From assembly GCA_020444165.1 (NCBI GenBank), contig JAHLLK010000004.1, forward strand, positions 1 through 64,000: a stretch of DNA of 64,000 nucleotides, in the 5' to 3' direction. How positions within the stretch are numbered: the first letter of the stretch is position 1; every line of letters begins with the position of its first letter. Under the pieces are notes generated by a model that saw only the letters and a program-made list of their open reading frames with translations, was not told the origin of the DNA and ran no database searches. This document shows, piece after piece, positions 13,437-62,473 of the stretch. The stretch is from Deltaproteobacteria bacterium. Lineage in GTDB: Bacteria; Desulfobacterota; Desulfarculia; Desulfarculales; Desulfarculaceae. The position numbers were made by a program, and so were the translations under genes.

Positions 13437-14336
13437 TTAGACTGCTTCCACCCCGGCCTGGGCCAGGATCGCCGGCACCACGTCGGTCCAGCCCATGGGC
13501 ATGATGTGCACGCCCTGCACCAGGGGTTTCAGCTCCCGGATGAGTCGGGCCGTCATCTCCACCGCCTTTTTCTTGCGGTCGCCCTCGGCCACGCTGTCCA
13601 TTTCCTTGATCCAGGCCTGGGGCACGGTGATGCCCGAGACGTGCTCGTTCATGTAGCGGGCCATCTGGGGCGATTTGATCACCACCACCCCCAACTGCAC
13701 CGGCTTGCCGAACTTGGCGGCCTGGTTCATGAAGCCCTCGAACAGGGCCGGGTCATACACCGCCTGGGTCTGGAAGAACTCGGCCCCCACGTCCACCTTC
13801 TTCTTCATCTTCATGAGTTGCAGGTCCAGGGGCTGGAAGCCCGGGTTCACCACCGCGCCCAAGGCCAGGTCCGGGGGGTTCTCGATGGGGTTGCCCACCA
13901 TGTCGTGGCCTTCCCGCAGCCCGGCGGCCATCTTGATGAGCTGCACCGAATCCAGGTCGAAGACGGGCTTGGCCTCCCGGTGGTCGCCCAGCTTGATGTG
14001 GTCGCCGGTCAGGAGCAGCACGTTGTCCATGCCCAGGGAGTAGCCGGCCAGGAGGTCGGATTGCAGGGCGATGCGGTTGCGGTCGCGGCAGGTGAGCTGC
14101 CACACCGGCTCCAGACCGGCCTGTTTGAGGCCCACGCAGGCGGCCAGGGAACCCAGGCGCATCACCGCGGCCTGGTTGTCGGTCACGTTCACCGCGTGCA
14201 CCTTGCCCTTCAGGTGGGCGGCTTCCTTCATATGCTGGGGAGGCAGGTTGCCGTTGCGGGGCACCGCGCCCTTCAGGGGGCCCACCTCGCTGGTGACCAC
14301 GAACACGCCTTTATCGAAAAGTTCGGTCAGTTTCAT
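13437..14336 (-). CDS. metF: methylenetetrahydrofolate reductase (MetF family)
   Basis: A 299-residue TIM-barrel protein that reduces methylene-THF to methyl-THF in the methyl branch of the acetyl-CoA pathway. Family landmarks are present: TSEVGPLKG near the N-terminus, HAVNVTDNQAAVMRLGSLA, QLTCRDRNRIALQSDL, LGMDNVLLLTGDH (flavin site region) and GAEFFQTQAVYD. The short form without a long C-terminal extension is the acetogen/sulfate-reducer type that works with MetV. metV lies 59 bp upstream on the same strand, so the two are probably one transcript. A GGAGAGGAT site precedes the ATG. Confidence 0.9.
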   Translation of the reverse strand: MKLTELFDKGVFVVTSEVGPLKGAVPRNGNLPPQHMKEAAHLKGKVHAVNVTDNQAAVMRLGSLAACVGLKQAGLEPVWQLTCRDRNRIALQSDLLAGYSLGMDNVLLLTGDHIKLGDHREAKPVFDLDSVQLIKMAAGLREGHDMVGNPIENPPDLALGAVVNPGFQPLDLQLMKMKKKVDVGAEFFQTQAVYDPALFEGFMNQAAKFGKPVQLGVVVIKSPQMARYMNEHVSGITVPQAWIKEMDSVAEGDRKKKAVEMTARLIRELKPLVQGVHIMPMGWTDVVPAILAQAGVEAV

Positions 14337-14395
14337 CTCGCTTATCCTCTCCTCGGCCCGGAAAGGGCCGCGCAGCCTAATGCGGGGTAGTTCCC

Positions 14396-15115
14396 TCAGT
14401 CCTGGTTGCTGACCGTCACATCGCCGGCCTGGGAGCAGAAGGTGGCCTGGTCGGGGCCCACGGTCAGGCGGCGGGGACGGCCCCAGCGGGCGTAGTTCTT
14501 GGGCGCCCGGTAGGGGGAGAGGATGTCCAGGCGGTCCAGGGCCTTCAGGCGCTCATAGATCATGATCCAGGCGCAGTCCCGGTTGGGGTCCACCTCGCAT
14601 TTGCCGTCCTGGGCCCCGCCGCAGGGCCCGTTCAAGAGGTTCTTGGAGCACAGCGTCATGGGGCAGAGCCCGCCGGTGTACTCGATGACGCACTGGCCGC
14701 ACAGGGAGCAGAACTCCTGGATCTCGCTGTCGGACACGGTCTCGCCGCCGAAGATGGTGTCGCAGCCGGGGTGCACCATGGCCCCGCCGGTGGCGTCCAG
14801 CACGGTGTGGATGCCCTGGCCGCAGGAGAGCACCAGGAAGGAGTCAGCCTGGGCCACCTCCTCGGCCCGGTCCTCCATGAGCACCTTCTGGGTGTTGGAA
14901 AGCTTGCACAGGGACATGCCCATGGGCCCGGGCACGGCCCAGCCCACCACGGCCACGCCGCGCCGGGCCAGCCGCTCGGCCATGGCCTGGGTCTCCGTCT
15001 CGCCGCCCGAGTGGCATTTCATGGCGCAGTTGAAGCAGCCCACCACGAACACCTTTTCCCCGGGCCTGAGCGCCCCCACGATCTCTTCGATGGGTTTCTG
15101 AATGGTTGCGTGCAT
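14396..15115 (-). CDS. metV: MetV, iron-sulfur partner of methylenetetrahydrofolate reductase
   Basis: 239 residues matching the family annotated as the methylenetetrahydrofolate reductase C-terminal domain (MetV). It is cysteine-rich, with clusters at VGCFNCAMKC near the N-terminus, LSCGQG, EFCSLCGQC near residue 135, and LCSKNLLNGPCGGAQDGKC. In acetogens MetV binds Fe-S or zinc and zinc-like sites and links MetF to the electron donor. An excellent ribosome binding site (AAAGGAGATGAC) precedes the ATG. It sits directly upstream of metF. The AT-rich stretch upstream (about 15186-15240) probably holds the promoter, although I see no clear -35/-10 pair. Confidence 0.88.
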   Translation of the reverse strand: MHATIQKPIEEIVGALRPGEKVFVVGCFNCAMKCHSGGETETQAMAERLARRGVAVVGWAVPGPMGMSLCKLSNTQKVLMEDRAEEVAQADSFLVLSCGQGIHTVLDATGGAMVHPGCDTIFGGETVSDSEIQEFCSLCGQCVIEYTGGLCPMTLCSKNLLNGPCGGAQDGKCEVDPNRDCAWIMIYERLKALDRLDILSPYRAPKNYARWGRPRRLTVGPDQATFCSQAGDVTVSNQD

Positions 15116-45363: not shown

Positions 45364-45616
45364 GCCCCGCTCCTGTCCCGCCCAGGGGTATTTGCCCAGC
45401 CCGGCGCCCCCCAGGCTGCCGGGAGACCGCAGGCACGATTCCTCATGTTACCCGCCGCCTTGCCCGGCGGCCAGGATAAATCCCCCGGGCGCCAAGCCCC
45501 GGTTGACACGGCGCGGTCCCGGGGTGCTATTTTGATAATTGAATGGCCCTCAGCCCCGGCAAATCCCCGCCGGTGGCGCGGAGGGGGCCGTCCTCCCAGA
45601 AGGGAGTGGGTTGAGC

Positions 45617-46849
45617 ATGCGACACGTCATCATTGGCAACGGCGTGGCCGCCATCAGCGCCGCCGAAACCATACAAGCCCTGGATCCCGCGGCCGCGGTG
45701 ACCCTCCTCTCCCGGGAGGACGGGCCGCCCTACTGCCGGCCCATGATCAGCCTGGCCTTGCAAGGCACCGCCAGTTTCGACGACCTCCCCATCCGTCCCC
45801 CCACCTATTACCAGGATCGGGGGTTCACTTTTTTAGGCGGCTCCACGGCCGTGGAGCTGGACCTGGACCGCCAGCGGGTGCGCACCAGCCGGGGCGAGGA
45901 CCTGCCCTATGACCGGCTGCTTTTGGCCTCGGGAGCCGACCCCCGGCCCCTCAAAGCGCCGGGGGCGGACCTGCCCGGGGTCTTTGCCATGCGCGACGCC
46001 GCCGACGTGCGGGGCATGCTGGAGGCCCTGCCCGCGGCCAAGCAGGCCCTGGTCCTGGGCGGCGGCCTGGTGGGTTTCAAGGCGGCCTACGGCCTGTTGC
46101 ACCGCGGGCTCAAGGTGACCATGCTCATCGCCTCTTCCCACCCCCTGGTGATGCAGGTGGACCCCCGGGCTGGGGCGCTCATCCGGGACGAGCTGGAGAA
46201 AAACGGCCTGGAGGTGCGGGTGGGCGTGGAGGTGACCGCCCTGGAGGCCGTGCGAAGCCGGGTGGCCCTGGCCCGGCTGTCGGACGGCGGCAGCCTGGCC
46301 ACCGACCTGGTGGTGGTGGGCAAGGGCGTCTCCCCGGCCATTTCCTATCTGGACCGCGAGCGCATCAAGGTGGACCTGGGGGTGGTGGTGGATGAGCATC
46401 TCCAGACCACGGCGCCCGGGGTCTACGCGGCCGGGGACTTGGCCGAGCACACCGACGTGGCCCGGCAGCGGCCCTGGGTCAACGCCATCTGGCCGGTGGC
46501 CGTGGAGCAGGGCCGCCTGGCCGGGGCCAACATGGCTGGCCGGCCGGTGGCCTACCGGGGCAGCCTGGGCCGCAACGTCATCCGGGTCTTTGGCCGGGAC
46601 GTACTGACCGCCGGCCTGGTGAACCCGGCCGCGGACGACATCTGCCAGACCCTGGAGGACGAGGATCCCCGCCGGGGCTGGTACCGCCGCCTGGTGTTCC
46701 AGGGCGACACCCTGGTGGGCCTGGCCCTGGTGGGCGGCATCGAGCAGGGCGGGGTCTTGATGAACCTGATCCAGAGCCGGCTGCCGGTGAGCGGGGACAA
46801 GGCCCGGCTCCTGGAGCCCGGCTTCAACTTCGCCTCCTTGGGGGCTTAG
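45617..46849 (+). CDS. FAD-dependent NAD(P)H oxidoreductase of the CODH cluster
   Basis: 410 residues. Two dinucleotide motifs are present: an N-terminal FAD site IGNGVAAISAAETI and a second at VLGGGLVGFKAAYGL near residue 145. The C-terminal family motif VYAAGDLAEHTDVARQ is also visible. This pattern fits the nitrite-reductase-like/NADH oxidase branch of pyridine nucleotide-disulfide oxidoreductases, but no redox-active CxxC is seen. It is the first gene of a plus-strand group with the CooF-like ferredoxin and CooS, so it probably passes electrons between CODH ferredoxin and NAD(P). The start at 45617 is the ATG opening the FAD motif. Confidence 0.8.
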   Translation: MRHVIIGNGVAAISAAETIQALDPAAAVTLLSREDGPPYCRPMISLALQGTASFDDLPIRPPTYYQDRGFTFLGGSTAVELDLDRQRVRTSRGEDLPYDRLLLASGADPRPLKAPGADLPGVFAMRDAADVRGMLEALPAAKQALVLGGGLVGFKAAYGLLHRGLKVTMLIASSHPLVMQVDPRAGALIRDELEKNGLEVRVGVEVTALEAVRSRVALARLSDGGSLATDLVVVGKGVSPAISYLDRERIKVDLGVVVDEHLQTTAPGVYAAGDLAEHTDVARQRPWVNAIWPVAVEQGRLAGANMAGRPVAYRGSLGRNVIRVFGRDVLTAGLVNPAADDICQTLEDEDPRRGWYRRLVFQGDTLVGLALVGGIEQGGVLMNLIQSRLPVSGDKARLLEPGFNFASLGA

Positions 46850-46957
46850 TTGGGAGCCGGTCGGAATATGCGTGCCAGGGCTATCTTGAGCCACTTCCTC
46901 ACTTTCAGCAGGAACCGCGGCTTGTATATGGCCATTGCTAATCTTGTTGAAAATCAT

Positions 46958-47043
46958 GAAGTTTTTTGGGGGAAGGGGGGTGGGGGGAAACCCCTTTTTG
47001 TTCACAAAAAGGGGTTTCCCCCCACATCTTCCCCTTTCTCCGA
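46958..47043 (+). repeat. interspersed repeat R1, copy 3
   Basis: GAAGTTTTTTGGGGG, a G-run, then a perfect stem of about 20 bp (GTGGGGGGAAACCCC / GGGGTTTCCCCCCAC with T5/A5 extension, loop around TTCA), then ATCTTCCCCTTTCTCC. It lies between two co-directional genes, unlike copies 1 and 2. Confidence 0.8.
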
Positions 47044-47068
47044 ATGATTCTTAGCCGGAGGGAGGACC

Positions 47069-47674
47069 ATGAAACAAGTGATCGTGCATCCCGAGCGTTG
47101 CGTGGGCTGCATGCAGTGCATGCCCGCCTGCGCCGCGGCGCACAGCCGCTCCCGCACCCTTTTGGGGGCAGTGGGCGAAACACCCCGGCCCCGGCCCCGG
47201 GTGCACGTGGGCGCCGGGGTTTGGGGCGAGGGCTTCCCCAACCGCTGCCGCCACTGCGACCCCGCGCCCTGCCAGCAGGCCTGTCTGCCCGGCGCCATAT
47301 TGCGGGACCCCCAGAGCGGAACCGTGCTCATCGACCCGGACCGGTGCATCAACTGCGCCTCCTGCGCCATGGCCTGCCCCTTTGGGGTGATCCGCTACCA
47401 TCCCGACTTCGCGGCCCCTCTGGGCAAGACCGTGGCCGTGAAATGTGACAATTGCCTGCAACGCCAGGAGGAAGGGCTGATTCCGGCGTGTGTGGAGGCT
47501 TGCAAGGTGGGGGCGCTGACCTTTGAGGAGCCTGACGCCGCCCTGGCCCGGCGCACCCGGGAGGTGGCCCGCAGCGTGAGCCTGGGCGCGGAGATCAGCG
47601 AAACCCCGCCGCCGCCGGGGATGGCCCTGTTGGCCGCGGTGAAGCGGGCCGCCCGGGAGCTGGCCGGCCGCTGA
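47069..47674 (+). CDS. cooF: CooF-like four-cluster ferredoxin
   Basis: 201 residues with four cysteine groups in the CooF/DmsB pattern: CVGCMQCMPACAAAHS, CRHCDPAPCQQACLPGAI, CINCASCAMACPFGVI and CDNCLQRQEEGLIPACVEAC. It should carry four [4Fe-4S] clusters and shuttle electrons from CO dehydrogenase. A good GGAGGGAGGACC-type site precedes the ATG. cooS follows 80 bp downstream. A role in other oxidoreductases cannot be excluded from the sequence alone, but the location supports CODH. Confidence 0.85.
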   Translation: MKQVIVHPERCVGCMQCMPACAAAHSRSRTLLGAVGETPRPRPRVHVGAGVWGEGFPNRCRHCDPAPCQQACLPGAILRDPQSGTVLIDPDRCINCASCAMACPFGVIRYHPDFAAPLGKTVAVKCDNCLQRQEEGLIPACVEACKVGALTFEEPDAALARRTREVARSVSLGAEISETPPPPGMALLAAVKRAARELAGR

Positions 47675-47754
47675 GCCGGGGATGAAGCGATTTTTTCGAT
47701 AATGAACGTATGCAACCGGGGCCTGGCCGCCCCGGATGGGGCCGGGAGGAAAAA

Positions 47755-49647
47755 ATGAGTCATCACGACGAGTTTTCCAAGCTGACCATGGTGGAGGATG
47801 CTCAGCTCATGCTGAAAAAGGCCCGGCGGGACCAGGTGGAGACCGTCTGGGATCGCCTGAAGGCCCAGGAGCCCCACTGCGGCTTCTGTGAGATGGGGCT
47901 TTCCTGCCGCATCTGTGTCATGGGCCCCTGCCGCATCGACCCCTTTGGCGAGGGTCCCCAGCGGGGGGTGTGCGGCGCTGACGCGGACATCATCGTGGCC
48001 CGCAACCTGGGCCGCATGATCGCGGCCGGCTCGGCCTCCCACTCGGACCACGGCCGCGACCTGGTGGAGGTGTTGGCCCGGGTGGCCGAGGGTCAGGCCC
48101 CGGGCTACAGCATCAAGGACCCGGCCAAGCTGCGGGCCGACTGCGCCCTCTATGGCATCGCGGTGGAGGGCAAGGACGACCTGACCCTGGCCGGGGAGCT
48201 GGCCGACGCATTCTTTGAGGAGTTCGGCACCCGGAAGAAGGCCTTGACCATGCTGGACCGGGCCCCGGAGCCCCGCCGGAAACTGTGGGCCAAGCTGGGC
48301 ATCACCCCCCGGGGCATCGACCGCGAGACCAGCGAGATGATGCACCGCACCCACATGGGGGTGGACAACGACTGGGTGCGCCTGTTGTTGCACGCGCTCC
48401 GGAATTCCCTCTCGGACGGCTGGGGCGGGTCCATGATCGCCACCGAGGTGAGCGACATCCTCTTCGGCACCCCGGCGCCGCGGCCCAGCCAGGTGAACCT
48501 GGGCGTCTTGCAGGAGGACCAGGTCAACGTCATCGTGCACGGGCACAACCCCGTGGTGTCGGAGACCATCCTCACCGCCTGCCAGGATCCGGAGTTGCTG
48601 AAACTGGCCCAGGAACACGGGGCCACGGGCATCAACCTGGTGGGGCTGTGCTGCACCGGCAACGAGCTGATGATGCGCCACGGCATCCCCATGGCCGGCA
48701 ACCACCTGATGACCGAGCTGGCCCTGGTCACCGGCGCGGTGGAGATGCTCATCGTGGATTACCAGTGCATCATGCCCTCCCTGGGGCAGATCGCCACCTG
48801 CTACCACACCAAGATGATCTCCACCAGCGACAAGGCCGGCTTCCCCGGGGCCGAGCACCGGGAGTTCCATCCCCACAACGCCCTGGAATTGGCCCATCAG
48901 GTGGTGAAGGAGGCGGTGGAGAACTTCGCCCGCCGGAACCCGGACAAGGTCTACATCCCGGTGGAGCCCACCGAACTGATCAGCGGCTTCTCGGTGGAGG
49001 CGGTGCTGGCGGCCCTGGGCGGCAGCCTGGACCCGCTGTTGGACGCCATCAAGTCCGGCGCGCTCCGGGGCGCGGTGGGCGTGGTGGGCTGCAACAACCC
49101 CAAGATCAAGCAGGACTACGGCCACGTAACCCTCATCAAGCGCCTGATCGAAAACGACATCCTGGTGGTGGACACGGGCTGCGCCGCGGTGGCCAGCGCC
49201 AAGGCCGGCTTCAAGCAGGCCAAGTCGGCCGAGCTGGCCGGGCCGGGGCTCAAGGCCGTGTGCCAGGCCTTGGGGGTGCCGCCGGTGCTGCACGTGGGCA
49301 GTTGCGTCGACAACGTGCGCATCCTCACCCTGTGCGCGGCCCTGGCCGACGCCCTGGGGGTGGACATCAGCGCCCTGCCCGTGGCCGGCGCGGCGCCGGA
49401 ATGGTATTCGGAAAAGGCCGCGGCCATTGGCTGCTACTTCGTGGCCTCGGGGGTCTACACCGTGTTGGGGCCCATGCCGCCGGTCACCGGCAGCATGAAC
49501 GTGGCCGGGATGTTGACCGGGGGCCTGAACGACGTGGTGGGCGCCTCCTTTGCCGTGGAGCCCGATCCCGAGGAAGCCGCCCTCCTGATCCGGCGCCACA
49601 TCGAGGCCAAGCGGGCGGCCCTGGGCCTGGATTCCCGCCCGGTGTAA
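47755..49647 (+). CDS. cooS: anaerobic carbon monoxide dehydrogenase catalytic subunit
   Basis: 630 residues, the normal length for Ni-CODH. The N-terminal cluster region is present (CGFCEMGLSCRICVMGPCRIDPFG), followed by VCGADADIIVARNLGR. Later cysteine and histidine motifs typical of the C-cluster include VGVVGCNNPKIKQD, VDTGCAAVASAKAG and LHVGSCVDNVRI. It interconverts CO and CO2 using a NiFe4S cluster. The start at 47755 follows GGGAGGA. It is the last gene of the FAD oxidoreductase-cooF-cooS group and ends at a strong terminator. No cooC or cooA-like gene is visible in the window. Confidence 0.93.
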   Translation: MSHHDEFSKLTMVEDAQLMLKKARRDQVETVWDRLKAQEPHCGFCEMGLSCRICVMGPCRIDPFGEGPQRGVCGADADIIVARNLGRMIAAGSASHSDHGRDLVEVLARVAEGQAPGYSIKDPAKLRADCALYGIAVEGKDDLTLAGELADAFFEEFGTRKKALTMLDRAPEPRRKLWAKLGITPRGIDRETSEMMHRTHMGVDNDWVRLLLHALRNSLSDGWGGSMIATEVSDILFGTPAPRPSQVNLGVLQEDQVNVIVHGHNPVVSETILTACQDPELLKLAQEHGATGINLVGLCCTGNELMMRHGIPMAGNHLMTELALVTGAVEMLIVDYQCIMPSLGQIATCYHTKMISTSDKAGFPGAEHREFHPHNALELAHQVVKEAVENFARRNPDKVYIPVEPTELISGFSVEAVLAALGGSLDPLLDAIKSGALRGAVGVVGCNNPKIKQDYGHVTLIKRLIENDILVVDTGCAAVASAKAGFKQAKSAELAGPGLKAVCQALGVPPVLHVGSCVDNVRILTLCAALADALGVDISALPVAGAAPEWYSEKAAAIGCYFVASGVYTVLGPMPPVTGSMNVAGMLTGGLNDVVGASFAVEPDPEEAALLIRRHIEAKRAALGLDSRPV

Positions 49648-53777: not shown

Positions 53778-54020
53778 TCATTCCTCCTCGGCCTGGCGCT
53801 GAATCTCCCGAAAGCGGTCCGTCTCGGTGAACTTGCGCAACTCGGCGGCGGCCGCGTCCTCCGGGGTCAGGTGAATCTCGCCGCATTGGGGGCAGGTCAG
53901 GTCCACCTCTTCTCCCACGGTGCGGGCCCGGATCTCCTCCACGCTCATGTGGCCGATGGCTCCGCACTTGGTGTCCACCCGCTCCACGCGCACCAGCACG
54001 CGCTTGCTCTTTGGCGCCAT
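53778..54020 (-). CDS. small zinc-ribbon-like protein, 80 aa
   Basis: 80 residues. Two cysteine pairs, of which one is CPQCGE and the other only a single C plus H (KCGAIGHMS), suggest a partial metal site, and the tail is a charged helix (RKFTETDRFREIQRQ). It starts 52 bp after the corrected end of the hydrogenase large-subunit gene, with AGGGAG upstream, so it probably belongs to the hydrogenase operon. I recognise no characterised family and would not assign a function. Confidence 0.6.
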   Translation of the reverse strand: MAPKSKRVLVRVERVDTKCGAIGHMSVEEIRARTVGEEVDLTCPQCGEIHLTPEDAAAAELRKFTETDRFREIQRQAEEE

Positions 54021-54072: not shown

Positions 54073-55524
54073 TTACCGTGAGACCCTATCCCCGGCCACC
54101 CGACGCCCCTGGGCGTCGAAAACCGTCACTGCGACCACGCGTCCGCCGTCCAGGCGGTGGGTGGCGCAGCTCAGTCAAGGATCATAGCAGCGCACCGCCA
54201 TTTCCACCTGGTTCAGGGCTTCCTCCGTGACCTCGCCGCCGGTGAGGAGGCTCCGGGCGGCCTGCTGCACCGAGAGGTTCATGGGGGCCAGGTTGTGGGT
54301 GGTGCCCACGATGAGGTTGGCCCGGGTGATGAGCCCGTTGGCGTCGGTGGAGTAGTCGTGCAACAGGGTGCCCCGGGGAGCTTCCACGCAGCCCACTCCG
54401 CGCCCGGCCCGGGGGGCCACCTGGGCCCGGATCTCCCGGCCGGTGATGCCGGGATCTTCCAACAGCTCCACCACCCGCTCGGACGCGTACAACAGCTCGA
54501 TGAGCCGGGCCCAGTGATAGAGCTGGGTGGACTGGGCCGGCCGGCCGAAGCGGCGGCGGAACTCCTCCAGCTCCCGCTGGGCCAGGGGGGTGGAGATGCC
54601 GGCGCAGACGTTCAGGCGGGCCAAGGTGTTGGTGCGGTAGATGCCCTTGGGGGCGTCCGGGTCCAGGGAGAACCCCTCGCCCCAGGAGCGGGCATAGGGG
54701 AACTTGCCGTAGGACCAGGGCTCCACGTGCTCGCCCAGATAATCCTGGTATTCGTTGTCCGCGAAAACGGTGTGACTGCCGTCGGGCTTCATGAGCCGCA
54801 GCACCCCGTCGAAGAACTCCAGGGAGCCGTCCGAGGGATTGACCAGGCCCAGGAAGCCGGTGGTGACCTGGCCCAGGCCCAGGAGCTTGTCGTCCAGCTT
54901 GGCGAACACGTGCTCCTTGGCGTAGGCCATGGCGAAATGGGCGAAATCCAGCATCTCCCGGCTGGCGGCCAACAGCTCCCGGCGCTCGGCCTCGCTCATG
55001 GGCTTGGCAAAGCCGCCCGGCACCATGGCCACCGGATGGATGACCTTGCCCGCGAAGCGCTCCATCATCATCTGGCCCAGGTGGCGCATCTTCACCACCC
55101 GGCGGGTCAGCTCGGGGTTGGCCGCGGCCAGACCCAGGACGTTCCGGGTCTCGGGCGGCGCCCCCGGCTCCAAAAGAAAGTCCGGGGCGGCCAGGAAAAA
55201 GAAATGCAGGATCTTGTCGTTGATGTGGGCCATCACCTGCATCAGCTCGCGGAGCTTCTGGCCCGTGGGCGGGGGCTGCACTCCGAAGCAGGCGTCCACC
55301 GCCTTGTTGGCCGCGGTGTGGTGCATCCAGGGGCAGATGCCGCAGATGCGGCTGACGATGCGGGGCACCTCCTCGGCCGGGCGGCCTTCCAAAAATTTCT
55401 CAAAGCCCCGGAGCGACATGATATGGAGCTTGGCGTCGGCCACCCGCCCCTCGTCATCCAATTGGATGGCGATGCGGGCGTGGCCCTCGATACGGGTTAC
55501 CGGTTGGATATTGATGGTTCGCAT
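54073..55524 (-). CDS. mvhA: [NiFeSe] hydrogenase large subunit (MvhA type), selenoprotein with in-frame UGA
   Basis: 483 residues with selenocysteine at position 450. The N-terminal RICGICPWMH (residues 59-68) supplies two metal-site cysteines. Near the end the frame reads RCYDP-UGA-LSCATHRLDGGRVV and continues 33 more codons to a TAA at 54073. The DPUxxCxxH pattern is the L2 motif of the large subunit, with U in place of the terminal nickel-ligand cysteine. Simple ORF calling stops at the UGA (54175-54177) and loses the second metal ligand, the histidine and the tail cleaved by the maturation protease. A stem-loop follows. The F420-nonreducing type, with small subunit MvhG and MvhD beside it, oxidises H2 and feeds HdrA. 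Confidence 0.88.
54143..54157 (-). promoter_or_regulatory. bacterial SECIS candidate of mvhA
   Basis: A 15-nt hairpin, CCGCC/GGCGG with loop UGGAC, starts 17 nt after the UGA and places its loop 22 nt downstream, within the range of bacterial SECIS elements. The loop has the G residues that SelB recognises. G+C-rich coding DNA makes such stems common, so alone it is weak evidence. Confidence 0.6.
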
Positions 55525-55540
55525 GGGGGATAACCTATTT

Positions 55541-56479
55541 TCAGCGCTTGGCGGGGCGGGGGCGCAGGTGGCCGTGGGCCCCCGAAAAGCGCAACAGCGA
55601 GCTGGGATCGACCAGGTCCCGGGGGGACACGGCGTTGCTGGCCAGGGCGTTCAAAAAGTCCAGGAGCTGATTGCCCCCCTGGCGCACCGGGCCGTAACAG
55701 CCCCGACAGGGCACCCGGGCCGCGAGGCAGCGCGGCGCGGCGCCGCCGGGGCCAGCACAGCCGGCCCGGGTCACCGGCCCCAGACACACCAGGCCCTGCT
55801 CCAAAAGGCAGCGCATCTGGTCCAGGGGCTTGTCCGGATCGTACACCGCGTTTTGCAGGAAGCGCCGCACTTTCTTGAGGGAGCCCTTGCCTTCCCGCAC
55901 CGTGGGACAGGTGTCGCACACGCTTTTGCCGGCCAAGTTGGGAGCGTTTCCCTCCAGGGCCGCGGTCAGGGTCTGGGCGATCTGTCCAGGGTGGGGCGGG
56001 CAGCCGGGCAGGTACACGTCCACCGCCACCTTCTCGTCCAGGGCCAGGACCCGGGGCAGGAGGGACGGCACGGTTTCGGTGGGGTCCGGGGCCGGGTCGG
56101 TGCTCTCGCTGGTGCGGAACACCCGCTCGGTCAGGGCGGCCAGGGGGGATTCATTGGCCAGGGCCGGGATGCCGCCGTGGGTGGCGCAGGTGCCCAGGGC
56201 CACCAGCACCCGGCACTTCTCCCGCATGGCCTGGAGCACGGCCAGATGCTCGGCGGTGCGCACCCCGCCGGAGACCAGGCCCAAATCGGCTGCGGGCAGC
56301 TGGGGGCGGTCCAGGTCCCCCTGACCCAGGGGACCGTAGTATTTGTGGTCCATCAACAGCGGCAAATGCACGAAGCTGAGGCGGGGCAAAAGGTCCAACA
56401 GGCCCTCCCCCAGGTTCAACAGCGACATCTCGCAGCCCGCGCAACCGCCCAGGCACTCCCCGGCCACTCGGACCTGCAT
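55541..56479 (-). CDS. mvhG: F420-nonreducing-type hydrogenase small subunit (MvhG)
   Basis: 312 residues. The small-subunit proximal cluster motif is near the N-terminus (GECLGGCAGCEMSLLNLGE), with the further cysteines at VALGTCATHGG and VYLPGCPPHP, and a C-terminal group (CLGPVTRAGCAG, CRGCYGP). It relays electrons from the Ni site of MvhA through Fe-S clusters. Its start codon overlaps the mvhD stop, and mvhA follows 16 bp downstream, supporting a three-subunit hydrogenase in one operon. Confidence 0.9.
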   Translation of the reverse strand: MQVRVAGECLGGCAGCEMSLLNLGEGLLDLLPRLSFVHLPLLMDHKYYGPLGQGDLDRPQLPAADLGLVSGGVRTAEHLAVLQAMREKCRVLVALGTCATHGGIPALANESPLAALTERVFRTSESTDPAPDPTETVPSLLPRVLALDEKVAVDVYLPGCPPHPGQIAQTLTAALEGNAPNLAGKSVCDTCPTVREGKGSLKKVRRFLQNAVYDPDKPLDQMRCLLEQGLVCLGPVTRAGCAGPGGAAPRCLAARVPCRGCYGPVRQGGNQLLDFLNALASNAVSPRDLVDPSSLLRFSGAHGHLRPRPAKR

Positions 56480-56907
56480 CAGGCCACCTCCTGGCCGTCA
56501 CCCGCCATGAGGGGGTTGGGTCCCAGGCTCAGGGCCAGGTCGGTCATCTGGGTGGCCGCCGCGGCGAACCGCTCCGCCTCGGAGGAGGAGCACCACACCA
56601 GGCGGAAACGCTCCGGCTCCAAGCCGTAGACTTCCATCATTTCCTCGACCACGGCCAGCCGGGCCTCGGCCTTCAGATTACCGTCCAGGTAGTGGCATTC
56701 GCCAGGGTGGCACCCCATCACCAGGACCGCGTCCGCTCCCTGGAGAAACGCCTCCATGACCAAGCCCGGATGCACCATGCCGGTGCACATCACCCGGATC
56801 AGGCGCAGATTGGCGGGATAGGACAGCCGGGAGGTGCCCGCCAGATCCGCGGCGGCGTAAGAGCACCAGTTGCAGGCGAAAACGAGAATCTTCGGCTCGT
56901 AGCTCAT
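56479..56907 (-). CDS. mvhD: hydrogenase iron-sulfur subunit MvhD (hydrogenase-Hdr linker)
   Basis: 142 residues. The family signature is clear: ILVFACNWCSYAAADLAG, IRVMCTGMVHP and VMGCHPGECHYLDGN. MvhD carries a [2Fe-2S] cluster and links the hydrogenase to HdrA. All expected cysteines are encoded as Cys; there is no in-frame UGA here, unlike the neighbouring subunits. The start at 56907 follows CGGAG; an ATG at 56925 in the same frame is less well supported. Confidence 0.9.
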   Translation of the reverse strand: MSYEPKILVFACNWCSYAAADLAGTSRLSYPANLRLIRVMCTGMVHPGLVMEAFLQGADAVLVMGCHPGECHYLDGNLKAEARLAVVEEMMEVYGLEPERFRLVWCSSSEAERFAAAATQMTDLALSLGPNPLMAGDGQEVA

Positions 56908-56974
56908 GAGCTGATCTCCGTGCATTCCAGCAGGAAAAATTGTCGAGGCCTAATGCACGACCTAATTAAAACAC

Positions 56975-57057
56975 GGAAGTTTTTGGGGGGAAGGGGGGGG
57001 GAAGCATCCTTTTTTGAAAAAAAGGGTCCTTTCCCCCACATTCTCAATTCTCCCCAA
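56975..57057 (+). repeat. interspersed repeat R1, copy 5
   Basis: GGAAGTTTTTGGGGGGAAGG, a G-run, then an imperfect stem (GGGGGGAAGCATCC / GGGTCCTTTCCCCC) and CACATTCTCAATTCTCC, ending about 6 bp before the hdrA stop. It lies between hdrA and mvhD inside the operon, in the same relation to the minus-strand gene as copies 1 and 2. Confidence 0.75.
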
Positions 57058-57062
57058 AATAC

Positions 57063-60000
57063 CTACCCGGACAAGGCCGCGGCCACCTGGGACGAGAGCT
57101 GGCGGTAGCTGAAGCCGGCCACGTCGATGCCCTCCTTGGGGCAGGTGGCCTGGCAGGAGCCGCAGCCCTTGCATTTGGCCGGGGCCACCTGCACCAGGAG
57201 CTTGCCTTCGTCCCCCTCGCCCTCCCCGGCCACCCTGAGCAGGGTGATGGCGCCGTAGGGGCAGACGTCCAGGCACAGGGCGCAGCCGTCGCAGAGCTCC
57301 GGGTTCACCATGGCCTTGATGGGCTCCAGGTCCAGGGTGCGCTGGGCCAGGACGGTCTGGGCCCGGGCCACCGCGGCCTGGGCCTGGGTCAGGCTCTCCT
57401 CGATGGGTTTGGGATAGTGGGCTAGGCCGGCCATGAACATGCCGTCCGAGGCGAAATCCACCGGCCGGAGCTTGCTGTGGGCCTCCAGCATGAAGCCGTC
57501 CGCATCCTGGGAAAGCTTGTAGATGCGGGCCAGCTCGGCGGTCTCCGGATGGGGCACGATGGCGGTGGCCAGGACCAGCACGTCGGCCGGGAGCCGGAGC
57601 GGCTCGTGCAGCACGTGGTCCCAGACCAGGACCTCCACCCGATCCGGCTCGGCCAGCTCCACCACCGGCTTCTCGTGCATCTCATAATTGATGAACACCA
57701 CGCCCAGCTCGCGGGCCCGCTGGTAGAGCTCCTCGCGCTGGCCGTAGGTCCGCATGTCGCGGTACAGGATGAAGACGTTGCGCTCCGGATTTTCCTCTTT
57801 CAGCTCGATGGCCGCCTGCACCGAATGGGTGCAGCAGACTCGGGAGCAATAGGGGCGCTCCGGCTCGCGGGAGCCCACGCACTGGATGAACACGAAGTTG
57901 TGGCCCTTTTTCACCCGGTGGTCGCCCAGGGCGTGCAGGGTGTCGAATTCCAGGGTGGTGTAAACCCGGCGGGACTGGCCATAGCCGTACTCCACCGGCC
58001 GGTAGGGCTGGCCGCCCACGGCCAGGACGGTCACCCCGTGCTCCAGGGACAAGGGGCCGTCCGGGGTCTCCACCGTGGTGACGAAGTTGCCCACGAAGCC
58101 CTCGGCCTCCTTGATGCGGCTCTCCAGATACACGTTGATCAGGGGGTGGTCCTTGACCTGGGCCACCAGGCGGTCCACCCCCGGCCGCACCGCCTCGTTT
58201 TTCCAGGTTTTGTAGAGATGCAGGGCGTTGCCGCCCAGGCGGGGGCTCTTTTCCACCAAATGCACCGGGAAGCCCTGCTCGGCCAGGCCCAGGGCCACGG
58301 TGATGCCGGTGAGCCCGCCGCCCACCACCAGGGCGTTGTGGTTCACCTCCACCAGGGGGGCCTGGGCCGCCCGGGCCAGAGTCACCTTGGCCACGGCCAT
58401 GCGCACCAGGTCGCGGGCCTTGTCCGTGGCCATCTCGGGCTGGCCGGCGTGCACCCAGCTGTCCTGGTTCCGAATGTTGGCCATCTCCAGGAAGCATTCG
58501 TTGAGCCCGGCGTCCTTCAGGGTCTCGCGGAACAGGGCCTCGTGGGTGCGGGGGGTGCAGGCCGCCACCACCACCCGGTTCAACCGCTCGCGGTCGATGA
58601 TCTGGCGGATGCGCTCCTGGCTGTCCTGGGAGCAGGAGAACAGGTTCTCTTCCACGTGCACCACGGCGGGCAGGCCCGCGGCATAGGCGGCCACGGCCGA
58701 GACGTCCACCACCCCGGCGATGTTGGAGCCGCAGTGGCAGACGAACACGCCCACCCGGGGGGCCTCTCCCTCCGAAACCCGGGGGGGCGGGAACTCCTTG
58801 GTGCGGGTGAGGCTGCCCCGGGCCTTGGCCAGGGGCAGCACCGCCGCCGCCGCCGCGGCCGAGGCCTCGGTGACCGACTGGGGGATGTCGTGGGGCCCGG
58901 CAAAGCAGCCGGCCACGAAGACCCCGCCGGTGCCCTGGGCCGTCACCGGGGCGAAGCAGGAGCGGGTGACAAAGCGGTTGCGGTTCAATTTCACCCCGGT
59001 GAGCCGGGCCAGTTCCACGGTGCTGGGCGAGGTCTCCAGCCCCACCGAGAGGACCACCAGGTCGAACTCCGCGCCCACCTGCTTGCCCCGGTCGGTGATG
59101 TAGCGCAAGAGGATGGCGCCCTTGTCGTCGGCCGGCTCCAGGGTGTGCACCCGGCAGCGGTGGAACTTGATGCCGGCCTCCTTGGCCCGCTGGTAGTAGC
59201 GCTCGAAATCCTTGCCGTGGGTGCGGATGTCCACGAAAAAGACGGAGATCTCCAGGTCCGGCTCATGGTCCAGGGCGATCATGGCCTCCTTGATGGCGTA
59301 CATGCAGCACACGCCGGAGCAGTAGGCATGGCCCGCCTTGTTCACGTCGCGGCTGCCCACGCACTGCAAAAAGGCCAGGCGGCGCACCCGGCCGCCGTCG
59401 CTGGGCCGGATCAGGCTGCCCTCGGTGGGACCGGCCGCGGCCAGATAGCGCTCCAGCTCCAGGGAGGTGATGACGTTGGGGAACTGGTCATAGCCCCAGG
59501 TGCGGATGCCCCGGGGACTGAAGGGCCGGAAGCCCGGGGTGAGGATCAAGGAGCCCACCCGCACGCTGCGCTGCCGGGCGGTGTCGGAAAAGTCGATGGC
59601 CCCGGCCGGGCAGACCTTTTCGCAGGTGCCGCAACGGCCCTCGGTGAGCTTCAGGCAGCGCTCGGGATCTATCTGGAATTTCAGGGGCACGGCCTGGGGA
59701 TACTTCACATAGATGGCTTTCCGGACTCCCAGACCCTGGTCATACTCGTCCGGCGCTTTTTGGGGGCATTTTTCCGCGCACTGCCCGCAGGCGATGCACT
59801 TTTCCTCGTTGACGTAACGCGGGCGCTGTTCCAGCGTCACGGTAAAGGCCCCGGCCTGGCCGGACACCTCCACCACGTCCGTCAAAGTCATCAATTCAAT
59901 ATTTAAGTGCCGACCGCACTCAACCAACTTGGGCGAGATAATTCACATCGAGCAGTCGTTGGTTGGGAAGGTCTTGTCCAACTGGGCCATGGTGCCGCCG

Positions 60001-60122
60001 ATGGCCCCGCTGTGCTCCACCAGGTAGACGTGATAGCCCCCGTTGGCCAGATCCAGGGCGGCTTGCATACCGGCAATGCCCCCGCCCACCACCATCACCG
60101 CCCCGATAATCTCTTGGCTCAT
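57063..60122 (-). CDS. hdrA: tandem HdrA-like flavoprotein, selenoprotein with in-frame UGA
   Basis: 1019 residues with selenocysteine at position 60. It starts at an ATG with GGAGGAG upstream. Residues 1-59 are the HdrA FAD site ([19 protein letters not shown]) up to TFPTNDCSM; the UGA (59943-59945) is followed by [17 protein letters not shown], the exact place of the conserved CSMC cysteine. A ferredoxin-like motif follows ([11 protein letters not shown], about 109). A second full HdrA unit starts near residue 600 ([19 protein letters not shown]), and two ferredoxin motifs close the protein ([14 protein letters not shown] and [15 protein letters not shown]). The tandem arrangement likely gives two flavin sites. 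It pairs with MvhD and the HdrC/D-like protein. Simple ORF calling drops the N-terminal flavin domain. Confidence 0.88.
59903..59923 (-). promoter_or_regulatory. bacterial SECIS candidate of hdrA
   Basis: UUGAGUGC pairs with GCACUUAA (8 bp, one G-U) around the loop GGUCG, whose GGUC resembles the SelB-binding loop of E. coli fdhF. The loop begins 27 nt after the UGA, within the usual window. The stem overlaps the coding sequence, as is normal in bacteria. Confidence 0.7.
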
Positions 60123-60150
60123 GGCGCCAACTCCTCCCCCCATAGGCAAG

Positions 60151-60397
60151 CTCGGATATTTCATGAAGCCCGGGCGTCCGGCTGCGCCAGATGTCCGCCT
60201 GCTTCGTTGCGAACTGCGCTCCAACCTCGACGTAGCTTTGGCTACGCCTCTCGGTTGTCGTTTGTTCGTCGCCTTGCCGGCCGCCATCTGGCTGTGCCGG
60301 TCCAAGTGACAAAACGTGACCTGAAAAACCGGTCCAAATCAGTTCGTAGGCGGCCTAACCATCCGGCCCACATGAAATATCCGGGCTGGCCGGACGC
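60151..60397 (+). repeat. interspersed palindromic repeat R3, long copy
   Basis: Ends are inverted (GGATATTTCATG at the left, CATGAAATATCC at the right). A second inner pair (GGCTGCGCCAGATG / CATCTGGCTGTGCC) surrounds CGTAGC-TTTG-GCTACG at the centre. It fills the gap between the hdrA ribosome binding site and the stop codon of the upstream gene, inside the operon. A shortened copy lies at 25814. Confidence 0.75.
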
Positions 60398-60398
60398 T

Positions 60399-61871
60399 TT
60401 ACGACGCCCGGCTGGATTGGCTCTCTCCGGGCAGGACCAAGCTATTGGCCACCAGTTCCCAGAGATAGCGGACCTCCACATTAAGGTTGTACTCCCGGTT
60501 GAGGCTTTTCAGGATCTGATCGCGGCAGTTGTGGCAGGGCGTCACCACGCGGGACGCCCCGGTGCGCTTGATCTGCCGGGCCTTGAACCGGCCATAGAAA
60601 ACCCGCTCTTCGTTGAAGGACATGGCCCAGGCGCCGCCGCCGGCGCCGCAGCAGTAATTGCCTTCGCGGTTGGGGTACATCTCCACGAAGTTGGGCGTGC
60701 ATTGCCGGGCCACGAAGCGGCCCTCCTCGGCATAGCCCTTGCCAAAGGCCTTTTCCGACTTGCGGGTGTAGTTGCAGGGATCGTGATAGGTGGTCAGCTC
60801 CGGATGCCGCGAGGGATCCAGCTTTATGCGCCCTTCCTGGATGTAGCGGGCCAAAAGCTCCATTACGGTAACCACCTCGAACTTCTGTAAATCTTCCGGG
60901 AACCAGCGTTGCAGACCAAGCCTGGTCGCATAATAGGCGTGGCCTCACTCGGGTAGGAGTAAGGTCTTGCAATCCAGGCGGTGCATGTTCTCCACCACCC
61001 GTCCCACCAGGGTGCGCATGGACTCGTCGTCTCCGGTGAACAGGGCCCAGTTGACCCCTTCCCAGTTCACCGAGGGAATGGTCCAGTCCTCGCCGGCGGC
61101 GTGGAAGATCTTCCACCAGTGCTTCAGGTCGTCGGGCTCGGCAAAGGGCTCCTTGGAGTTCACGGTGATCATGAGGTTGGCCCCCACCTTGTCCACCGGC
61201 ACCTGGAAACCGGGGCAGCTCTCCTCGGCCAACTCCTGGCCCAACTGCCCCAAGAGGGCGAGAAAATCCTCCCGGGGAATGCCCAGGTTGTTGCCCCGGG
61301 CCAAGTCCATCAGCACCCCGCGGTGCATGGGATGGGGCACCCGGTCGCGGTCCCGGAGCCCGCGCACGGTCCGGAGCATGGCCACCAGCTCCACGTTCAT
61401 GGGGCAGGCTTCCTCGCATTTGCCGCAGAGGGTGCATTTCCAGGGCCACTGCGACTCGATCAGCTCCTCTTCCAAGCCCAGAACCACCTTCCGCACCGCC
61501 TTGCGGGGGTCCAGGCCGTCCACCCCGCTGATGGGGCAGGCGCTGGCGCAGCTCCCGCAGGTGAGGCACACGTCGGCCCAGGAGGCGTCCTTCCGGAGCC
61601 GGGTGGTCCGCCGCCCCAGGGTGCGCACGGTGGGCTGGTGCAGGTAGAGGTTTTTCTTGACGGTCTGGTCCGCGGCCAGGGGCTTGGTCCGGATGGTGGC
61701 CGGATTGATGTTGAACTCCCGGCACAGACGGTTGAACTCCTGGGGGCTCAACACGATGCCCTTGCCTGGCGCGGGACCGGCTTCCAGACGGCCTTGCTTG
61801 ATCCAATTGCGGATGGTGTTGCGGTGCACACCCAGCTTGTAGGACAACTCCGAGACTTTCACTACAAACAT
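60399..61871 (-). CDS. HdrC/HdrD-like iron-sulfur protein with N-terminal HTH, selenoprotein with in-frame UGA
   Basis: 490 residues with selenocysteine at position 309. The start at 61871 overlaps the protease stop (TGATG). Residues 1-55 are a MerR/excisionase-type HTH (VSELSYKLGVHRNTIRNWIKQG). Residues about 100-160 hold two ferredoxin motifs (CLTCGSCASACP, CTLCGKCEEACP) as in HdrC. Then the frame reads LLLPE-UGA-GHAYY: UGA at 60945-60947 sits in the conserved PECGHA cysteine of HdrD/DsrK-type proteins. The CCG domain follows (YHDPCNYTRK, NYCCGAGGGAW, CHNC). Simple ORF calling splits it in two. It would receive electrons from HdrA, and the HTH fusion is unusual. Confidence 0.85.
60910..60930 (-). 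promoter_or_regulatory. bacterial SECIS candidate of the HdrC/D-like gene
   Basis: UGC-GACCA / UGGUC-U-GCA forms an interrupted 8-bp stem with a GGCU loop 22 nt after the UGA. The position and G-rich loop fit a bacterial SECIS. The bulged U in the stem is a common feature of such elements. Confidence 0.6.
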
Positions 61872-62371
61872 CAGGCTCTCGCAATCTCTTGCAGAATCTG
61901 CAGAATCCACGCCGAGGCCCGGGGTACCGCCGCCGCCACCGGTGGGGACAGCCCGGGGTTCACCTGTTCCGGCCGCGCCGCCACCTTGACGGCCAGGATG
62001 CGCACCCGGGTGGCGGTCTGGGTGGCCAGCTCCCGGAGCAGGTTCAAGGACGGAAAATGGTGGACGCTGAAGTCATGAGCCTTGGCCGGGTCCACTTGGG
62101 ACACGGTCAACTCGGCCAACTCGCCGGGCGCCAGATCCGGAGGGTCGGCGGCGTCCACCAGGATCAATAGCCGGGGCCGGGTGGGGGAGAGCAGGAGGTC
62201 GAACAGGAGATCGCGGATGCCGGTGCCCACGTCGGCGGCATGGACCTCGTCCGGGAGCTGGTGGTGCGTGAGTAGGTGCTCAATTACGGCCGGACCGAAG
62301 CCGTCGTCGCCCAAGAGGGTGTTGCCACAGCCCAGGATCTGGATCGGCTTGGAAGTGAGTTGCTGGTACAT
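61871..62371 (-). CDS. hydrogenase maturation protease (HycI/FrcD family)
   Basis: 166 residues. The start IQILGCGNTLLGDDGFGPAVIEHL has the conserved GNxLLGDDGxG motif, and LLILVDAADP gives the second conserved aspartate of the nickel-sensing protease. These enzymes cut the C-terminal peptide of the large subunit after the metal site; the target is likely the DPULSCATH tail of MvhA in the same operon. It is the first gene of the operon, directly behind the promoter, and its stop overlaps the ATG of the HdrC/D-like gene. Confidence 0.85.
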   Translation of the reverse strand: MYQQLTSKPIQILGCGNTLLGDDGFGPAVIEHLLTHHQLPDEVHAADVGTGIRDLLFDLLLSPTRPRLLILVDAADPPDLAPGELAELTVSQVDPAKAHDFSVHHFPSLNLLRELATQTATRVRILAVKVAARPEQVNPGLSPPVAAAVPRASAWILQILQEIARA

Positions 62372-62436
62372 GAGAGCCCGTCGCGGCCCTGGGCCGAACT
62401 GAGGTTGTGCTCTTTGTGCTGTCTGTGCCCCCTTCC

Positions 62437-62473
62437 GATCAAATATTGATAGTACAAGTGAATTTGTTTGTCA
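62437..62473 (-). promoter_or_regulatory. promoter of the hydrogenase/Hdr operon with inverted repeat
   Basis: On the minus strand TTGACA (62468-62473), 17-bp spacer, TATCAA (62445-62450). An inverted repeat ATCAA-N3-TTGAT (62437-62449) overlaps the -10. The transcript would begin about 70 bp upstream of the protease gene. No FNR-type spacing (TTGAT-N4-ATCAA) is present. Confidence 0.6.

Follow-up and report, generated by a model that had tools for sequence, protein, structure and literature searches.

Selenoprotein operons that join heterodisulfide reductase (Hdr) genes to hydrogenase genes have been described before, and we analysed one of them in the window, a 64,000-nucleotide stretch of a Desulfarculaceae genome (contig JAHLLK010000004.1, positions 1 to 64,000), where the HdrCB-type subunit, here called the CCG protein, begins with a helix-turn-helix (HTH) domain. 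In the excerpts of the cited papers on which we draw, Zhang et al. (2006) reported the order glpC-hdrA-frhD-frhG-frhA, with a doubled hdrA and with GlpC, HdrA, FrhD, and FrhA as selenoproteins, in Syntrophobacter fumaroxidans (three copies) and Desulfotalea psychrophila (PMC1794560), and a 2026 review repeats this operon and lists an Fe-S oxidoreductase-like family with the motif UGH, in which U is selenocysteine (Sec) (PMC13188914). Desulfobacterium autotrophicum carries mvhA2DG beside a Sec-containing HdrA1, for which bifurcation was proposed (PMC2702500), and in Desulfococcus multivorans hdrA and mvhD both encode Sec (PMC5109826). The five-gene selenoprotein operon is not new, having been described in 2006 (PMC1794560).

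By their open reading frames, the six genes that an earlier, sequence-only note on this DNA had named (protease, CCG protein, HdrA, MvhD, MvhG, and MvhA) are all present on the minus strand, and counterparts of MvhA, MvhG, MvhD, HdrA, and HdrB/C were found, as expected for the Mvh-Hdr type complex proposed there. Relatives were drawn from 80 fetched loci (L001-L080), which make 81 with the window; the closest are from Desulfarculales, namely L001 and L002 (Desulfocarbo indianensis), at 74%. We checked whether the joined genes are separate in all relatives, and they are not, their order being conserved. The locus agrees with the 2006 operon in gene order on one strand, in the doubled HdrA, in Sec in GlpC (the CCG protein), HdrA, and FrhA (MvhA), and in belonging to Desulfobacterota, but MvhD (FrhD) has Cys and a protease gene and a zinc-ribbon-like gene are added; because of the Cys in MvhD, we class it as a three-Sec form and not as identical to the 2006 operon. 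An HTH and an operator go unmentioned in the excerpts of that description (PMC1794560). The earlier note had missed the HTH on the CCG subunit, the direct repeats of a putative operator, and a seventh gene.

Compared with methanogen Mvh-HdrABC (5odc, 8rvu), the window shares the MvhAGD and HdrA families and HdrC- and HdrB-like parts, whereas its HdrC and HdrB are fused, with one complete CCG motif, its HdrA is doubled, and an HTH is added; profile and domain matches agree with the earlier suggestion that a single fused HdrCB-type protein replaces HdrB and HdrC. HmcF, TmcB, and DsrK likewise combine an HdrC-like ferredoxin part with a CCG domain and give the CCG protein its best NCBIfam scores, but these lie below the curated equivalog cut-offs (236/750, 203/735, and 164/400 bits), and the CCG protein differs from them in its Sec, within a UGH motif, and in the HTH in front. 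We read the operon as a three-Sec version of the known selenium-dependent Mvh-Hdr complex of Desulfobacterota, which oxidises H2 and presumably bifurcates electrons.

A helix-turn-helix domain on the CCG subunit

Judging from sequence, we think it probable that the HdrCB-type subunit is at once a redox protein and a "trigger enzyme" that binds DNA and regulates its own operon and other H2-metabolism genes, because it carries a conserved HTH and because matching repeats occur at its own promoter and at other H2 and energy genes. The domain is of the excisionase/MerR type and stands at the CCG N-terminus; its residues are conserved in 115 of 117 full-length homologues (among the matches listed, at their best end), and the recognition helix HRNTIRNW is nearly invariant. 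A structure model of the domain had a predicted local distance difference test (pLDDT) score of 92 and was similar to BldC, RacA, and Xis in a structure comparison.

PutA and BirA are trigger enzymes, that is, metabolic proteins with a DNA-binding domain; the CCG protein, in which an enzyme subunit and a predicted DNA-binding domain likewise share one polypeptide, differs from them in being an iron-sulfur, mostly Sec-containing hydrogenase/Hdr subunit. No further selenoprotein that carries a DNA-binding domain is known to us, although no search for one was made, and open-licence PMC papers, judged by titles, term counts, and abstract openings, included none that dealt with an HTH as part of an Hdr subunit. 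BldC binds DNA head to tail, with one 9-bp direct repeat for each protomer (PMC5859096). As in BldC and Xis, which are lone MerR-like winged HTH proteins, a MerR-like fold is here accompanied by 9-bp direct repeats upstream, to which it may bind by analogy; the window HTH differs in being fused to a redox enzyme subunit and in its repeat, which is GCACAA and not AATTnnnnC.

The HTH is found on the HdrA N-terminus instead in five loci (L141, L144, L146, L147, and L215), where repeats still lie upstream, and repeats are also present upstream of the HTH-CCG operons that lack hydrogenase genes in the fetched stretch, which are seven of the 80 (L013, L017, L027, L030, L044, L046, and L062). With the HTH moved to HdrA, or with the hydrogenase absent, the repeats are still there, so that the HTH and its sites appear separable from both CCG chemistry and hydrogenase.

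As side observations on the HTH-HdrA loci, L141, L144, L146, and L147 have what looks by eye like an FrhB-like gene between MvhD and MvhG, next to which L146 also retains a CCG gene. In the same four loci an internal Met of the fused HdrA is retained where HdrA normally begins, which makes two start sites possible.

Direct repeats and their co-occurrence with the domain

The putative operator in the window is the sole GCACn5 triple on either strand of the 64 kb, lies 18 bp past the -10 box, and is the window's top matrix site with a score of 11.3, the window being one of 55 training loci. Against matrices trained without the window it scored 10.5 (threshold 7.9) and 6.1 (threshold 4.2) and passed both, matrix thresholds differing between random starts; in an earlier run without four loci, it was missed by one of two window-free matrices (5.9 vs 8.9).

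Across relatives, TGCACAA occurs in 57 of 78 upstream regions, one of them from the window, compared to a mean of 1.43 in 30 sets of random same-locus stretches, and GCAC pairs at spacing 9 number 65 versus 1.6 in controls, the next-highest spacing being 18 with 12 pairs. Expectation maximisation (EM) on the 55 loci, chosen at less than 85% CCG identity, ranked the direct repeat AtGCACA.tTTGCACAAtg first in 9 of 12 random starts; the other three gave another, weaker motif that probably derives from first protease codons inside the regions. With a matrix built from these loci, a score of at least 9 was reached by 72 of the 78 regions, by none of 234 shuffles, and by a single one of 234 same-locus stretches; when upstream sequences were sorted into 41 dissimilar groups, 38 of the groups had a site. 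In cross-clade training and testing with all loci, 50 of 56 and 20 of 21 passed the 99% shuffle level; the corresponding figures were 42 of 54 and 15 of 19 without L008, L031, L037, and L038, of which L008 and L031 have no or weak sites. A sigma-54 reading of the pattern GGCAC-TGTTT-GC was considered and rejected: the sigma-54 -24/-12 consensus has a GG-to-GC spacing of 10, whereas the spacing here is 8, and the pattern often abuts the ATG.

Among 148 Desulfobacterota genomes, the HTH was detected in 10 at E<=1e-9, with one copy each (10/10), and reading of G046 added another, giving 11 HTH genomes. By hand count, the exact 15-bp pattern GCACAANNNGCACAA occurs 10 times, versus 3 times reversed, in these 11 genomes, compared to 63 versus 65 in the 137 genomes without the HTH. 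Five of those 10 matches precede the HTH operon (G039 twice, G046, G115, and G149), two precede a second hdrA operon (G062 and G098), and one is roughly 300 bp ahead of the gene for the small subunit of a Tat [NiFe] hydrogenase (G099); the remaining matches are in coding sequence (G054) and elsewhere (G115). Among MvhA genomes without the HTH, a match on the MvhA contig was seen in G108 only, about 630 kb off. The 29 HTH genomes reached via the loci, which share G128 with the 148-genome set, hold GCACAANNNGCACAA 25 times versus 3 reversed, and 12 of the 25 matches stand before the HTH operon, spread over 9 genomes. Similarly, all eight HTH-bearing loci among 32 fetched around MvhA have an upstream site (scores 8.5 to 16.4), whereas among the 24 loci without the HTH a non-coding site of at least 11 was found only in L167 and L168, whose genomes have the HTH elsewhere. 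L152, without the HTH, has a site of 11.1 inside mvhD, where its contig ends, and a similar coding match inside mvhD occurs in L141, L144, L146, and L147.

A matrix trained on operon sites only pointed to a wider predicted regulon. Sites scoring at least 9 within 500 bp upstream were found at 14 of 30 hydrogenase loci from HTH genomes versus 0 of 26 from genomes without the HTH, and at 11 of 30 versus 0 of 23 nuoA loci (Fisher 2.7e-5 and 0.0012, uncorrected for relatedness and with groups that differ in distance to the query); each set of 30 is among the matches listed for the 34 HTH genomes searched, and the comparison is with 34 genomes without the HTH. Sites also precede second hdr operons in some lineages, and in G185 a site lies about 200 bp upstream of a class III cytochrome c gene, identified by eye.

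How the subunit may act on its promoters

The gene order, the Sec codons, the HTH, the repeats, and the co-occurrence of HTH and repeats are established from sequence, and a mechanism connecting them probably runs as follows. The BldC/Xis-type winged HTH would, by analogy, bind head to tail on the 9-bp GCACA(A) repeats at the operon promoter and, in some lineages, in the same way at operons for [NiFe] hydrogenases and for complex I (nuo) and at second hdr operons, which would tie transcription of H2 metabolism to the amount or state of the HTH subunit. In the likeliest version, HTH-CCG or HTH-HdrA subunits that are free would repress by assembling head to tail on the repeats close to +1, and the repressor would come off the repeats when the subunit is taken up by Mvh-Hdr or in response to its cluster redox state. 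In this mechanism it is the DNA binding, repression as its sign, the signal, and the bifurcation reaction that we infer.

Repression at the operon is supported by the position of the sites, which start at a median of 21 bp past the -10 box in the 54 loci with a promoter call and, in 39 of these loci, fall between -30 and +60 relative to it, the calls being made by consensus only. At the other genes the sites of at least 9 are more distant (near -200 and -300 to -400 at nuoA, -135 to -490 at hydrogenases), and the distant nuoA sites leave room for activation. An HTH subunit that activates would suit these far-upstream positions and the behaviour of classical MerR proteins, which activate, but it fits the operon sites just past the -10 box poorly, and we consider it possible though rather doubtful.

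We regard it as unlikely that the locus is the known selenoprotein Mvh-Hdr operon only, with the HTH as a docking or oligomerisation module that does not bind DNA and with repeats that serve an unrelated regulator. In favour of this reading, HTH folds can mediate protein contacts, and the operon was published with the HTH unmentioned in the excerpted text (PMC1794560). Against it, the pattern is enriched in HTH genomes only, the repeats track the HTH whether it is on CCG or on HdrA and with or without hydrogenase genes, and their 9-bp period is the same as that of BldC (PMC5859096).

Sec decoding could itself be the switch, although we would give this small odds. Without selenium, translation of CCG or HTH-HdrA would stop at the UGA and free an HTH fragment that lacks the catalytic half, which would hold the repeats and reset the hydrogenase and complex I regulon, and with selenium the full subunit would join Mvh-Hdr. 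In favour of such a switch, the HTH precedes the UGA in both the HTH-CCG and the HTH-HdrA architectures, but the HTH operon occurs with a non-Sec CCG site in 21 of 81 loci, which argues against its generality. That the TGAs are real stops, and the operon a pseudogene or a set of split proteins, is hardly credible: one TGA does interrupt each of three frames, but dozens of species share TGA at each of these codons where others have Cys, hairpins are stronger after Sec than after non-Sec codons, and the selenoprotein families are published in the papers excerpted here.

Returning to the subunit as autoregulator, several matches sit badly with a hydrogen regulon. Seven of the 25 matches in the 29 genomes fall in coding or unrelated places that do not fit one, one of the 25 lies at an rnfC/rnfD junction, probably by chance, and the match in L223 is 617 bp before a hydrogenase gene yet within its neighbour. 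A looser pattern gave 32 versus 10 reversed in 10 genomes, with most inspected matches in coding or unrelated places, and in L083 (G009), L087 (G005), and L213 (G008) the repeats lie between genes that by eye are for an EamA-type transporter and a dihydroorotate-dehydrogenase-like protein, again with no hydrogen-regulon fit. To our knowledge, little is settled about how H2, redox, or the supply of selenium sets the level of hydrogenase in sulfate reducers. Should one of the subunits of the bifurcating complex prove to be a transcription factor, this regulator could be tested immediately, together with its DNA target and its predicted regulon, and a domain of 66 residues and a site of 24 bp would serve as the entry point.

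Selenocysteine sites and operon layout

The earlier count of three Sec genes is borne out for CCG, HdrA, and MvhA by an in-frame UGA, a hairpin resembling a bacterial selenocysteine insertion sequence (bSECIS), and Sec/Cys partners in relatives. Each frame is open across one TGA (U322 of the translated frame, LLLPEUGHAYY, in CCG; NDCSMUIISP in HdrA; U450, DPULSCATH, in MvhA), and homology to relatives continues past all three. With the window included, TGA stands at the aligned position in 60 of 81 CCG, 61 of 76 HdrA, and 47 of 48 MvhA readable genes, and the 21 non-Sec CCG residues are C (15), S (3), L (1), G (1), and T (1). MvhD, which has Cys in the window, has Sec in 39 of 64 readable genes, and 33 of 81 loci have Sec in all four proteins (CCG, HdrA, MvhD, and MvhA). 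The proposal that the whole electron path depends on selenium goes too far: it stands for the nickel site, HdrA, and the CCG protein, but not for MvhD and MvhG, which lack Sec in the window, nor for the loci with a non-Sec CCG site.

The Sec states are nested: among loci with both genes readable, MvhD-Sec always comes with CCG-Sec (39/39), CCG-Sec with HdrA-Sec (56/56), and HdrA-Sec with MvhA-Sec (40/40), counts that are uncorrected for relatedness. This suggests that selenium may have been gained or lost in order along the electron path. The hairpins have a G within the first two apical-loop positions. The hairpin is the minimum-energy fold of 53 nt for MvhA and HdrA and not for CCG, and comparison with shuffles gives modest z-scores (-1.9 for MvhA, -0.7 for HdrA, and -0.6 for CCG); mean energies at Sec versus non-Sec sites are -13.4 versus -6.1 kcal/mol for CCG and -10.9 versus -7.6 kcal/mol for HdrA. 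Of 10 related genomes, 9 have a tRNA-Sec above the Rfam cut-off, as do 5 of 14 controls.

The features are listed in Table 1. Gene overlaps, claimed earlier for the operon, exist between protease and CCG and between MvhD and MvhG, but not between CCG and HdrA or between HdrA and MvhD, where the spacing is 137 nt. HdrA probably starts at 60122. The CCG-to-HdrA gap (60123-60398) measures 276 nt, compared to only some 13-20 nt in L001 and L002, and it may be an insertion or carry a signal. By its position and conservation, the seventh gene is part of the operon: a homologue lies downstream of it in 53 of 80 loci, several of the remaining loci ending too early, and the gene is kept even in loci without MvhG/MvhA. 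A Pfam search with its protein gave nothing above a family cut-off.

Table 1 Features of the operon and its upstream region, in order along the minus strand
Feature	Coordinates	Strand	Remarks
Putative sigma-70-like promoter, TTGACA-N17-TATCAA	62446..62474	-	Basis is consensus match only
Putative operator, three GCACA(A) units, 9-bp period	62405..62428	-	34 bp before protease ATG
Hydrogenase maturation protease, HycI/FrhD type	61871..62371	-	PF01750 5.5e-15; TIGR00072 above cut-off
HTH-CCG protein: HTH, HdrC-like [4Fe-4S] part, HdrB-like CCG domain	60399..61871	-	Sec at UGA 60945-60947
Winged HTH domain, 66 aa, recognition helix HRNTIRNW	61674..61871	-	HTH_17 27.4 bits, cut-off 27
bSECIS-like hairpin, CCG gene	60901..60939	-	Loop GGCU, 22 nt past UGA; best local hairpin only
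HdrA, doubled form, about 1019 aa	57063..60122	-	Sec at UGA 59943-59945
bSECIS-like hairpin, hdrA	59896..59934	-	Loop GGUCG, 27 nt past UGA
MvhD, Cys only	56479..56925	-	PF02662 1.9e-49; Cys where many relatives have Sec
MvhG, hydrogenase small subunit	55541..56479	-	Profile matches
MvhA, [NiFeSe] hydrogenase large subunit, C-terminal extension	54073..55524	-	Sec at UGA 54175-54177
bSECIS-like hairpin, mvhA	54130..54167	-	Loop UGGAC, 22 nt past UGA
Seventh operon gene, 80-aa protein with CPxCG pair (zinc-ribbon-like)	53778..54020	-	

An Rfam scan of the window found a single partial tRNA at the window edge and nothing else, and ARAGORN found no tRNA in the window. A plasmid origin was considered and rejected, tblastn of the CCG protein against plasmids giving four weak matches in four records, none covering 80%. 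Elsewhere in the window, 45539-49647 looks by eye like genes for a CO dehydrogenase of the CooS kind, accompanied by ones for ferredoxin and flavoprotein, and 13437-15115 is, on the same footing, presumably a MetV/MetF-like pair.

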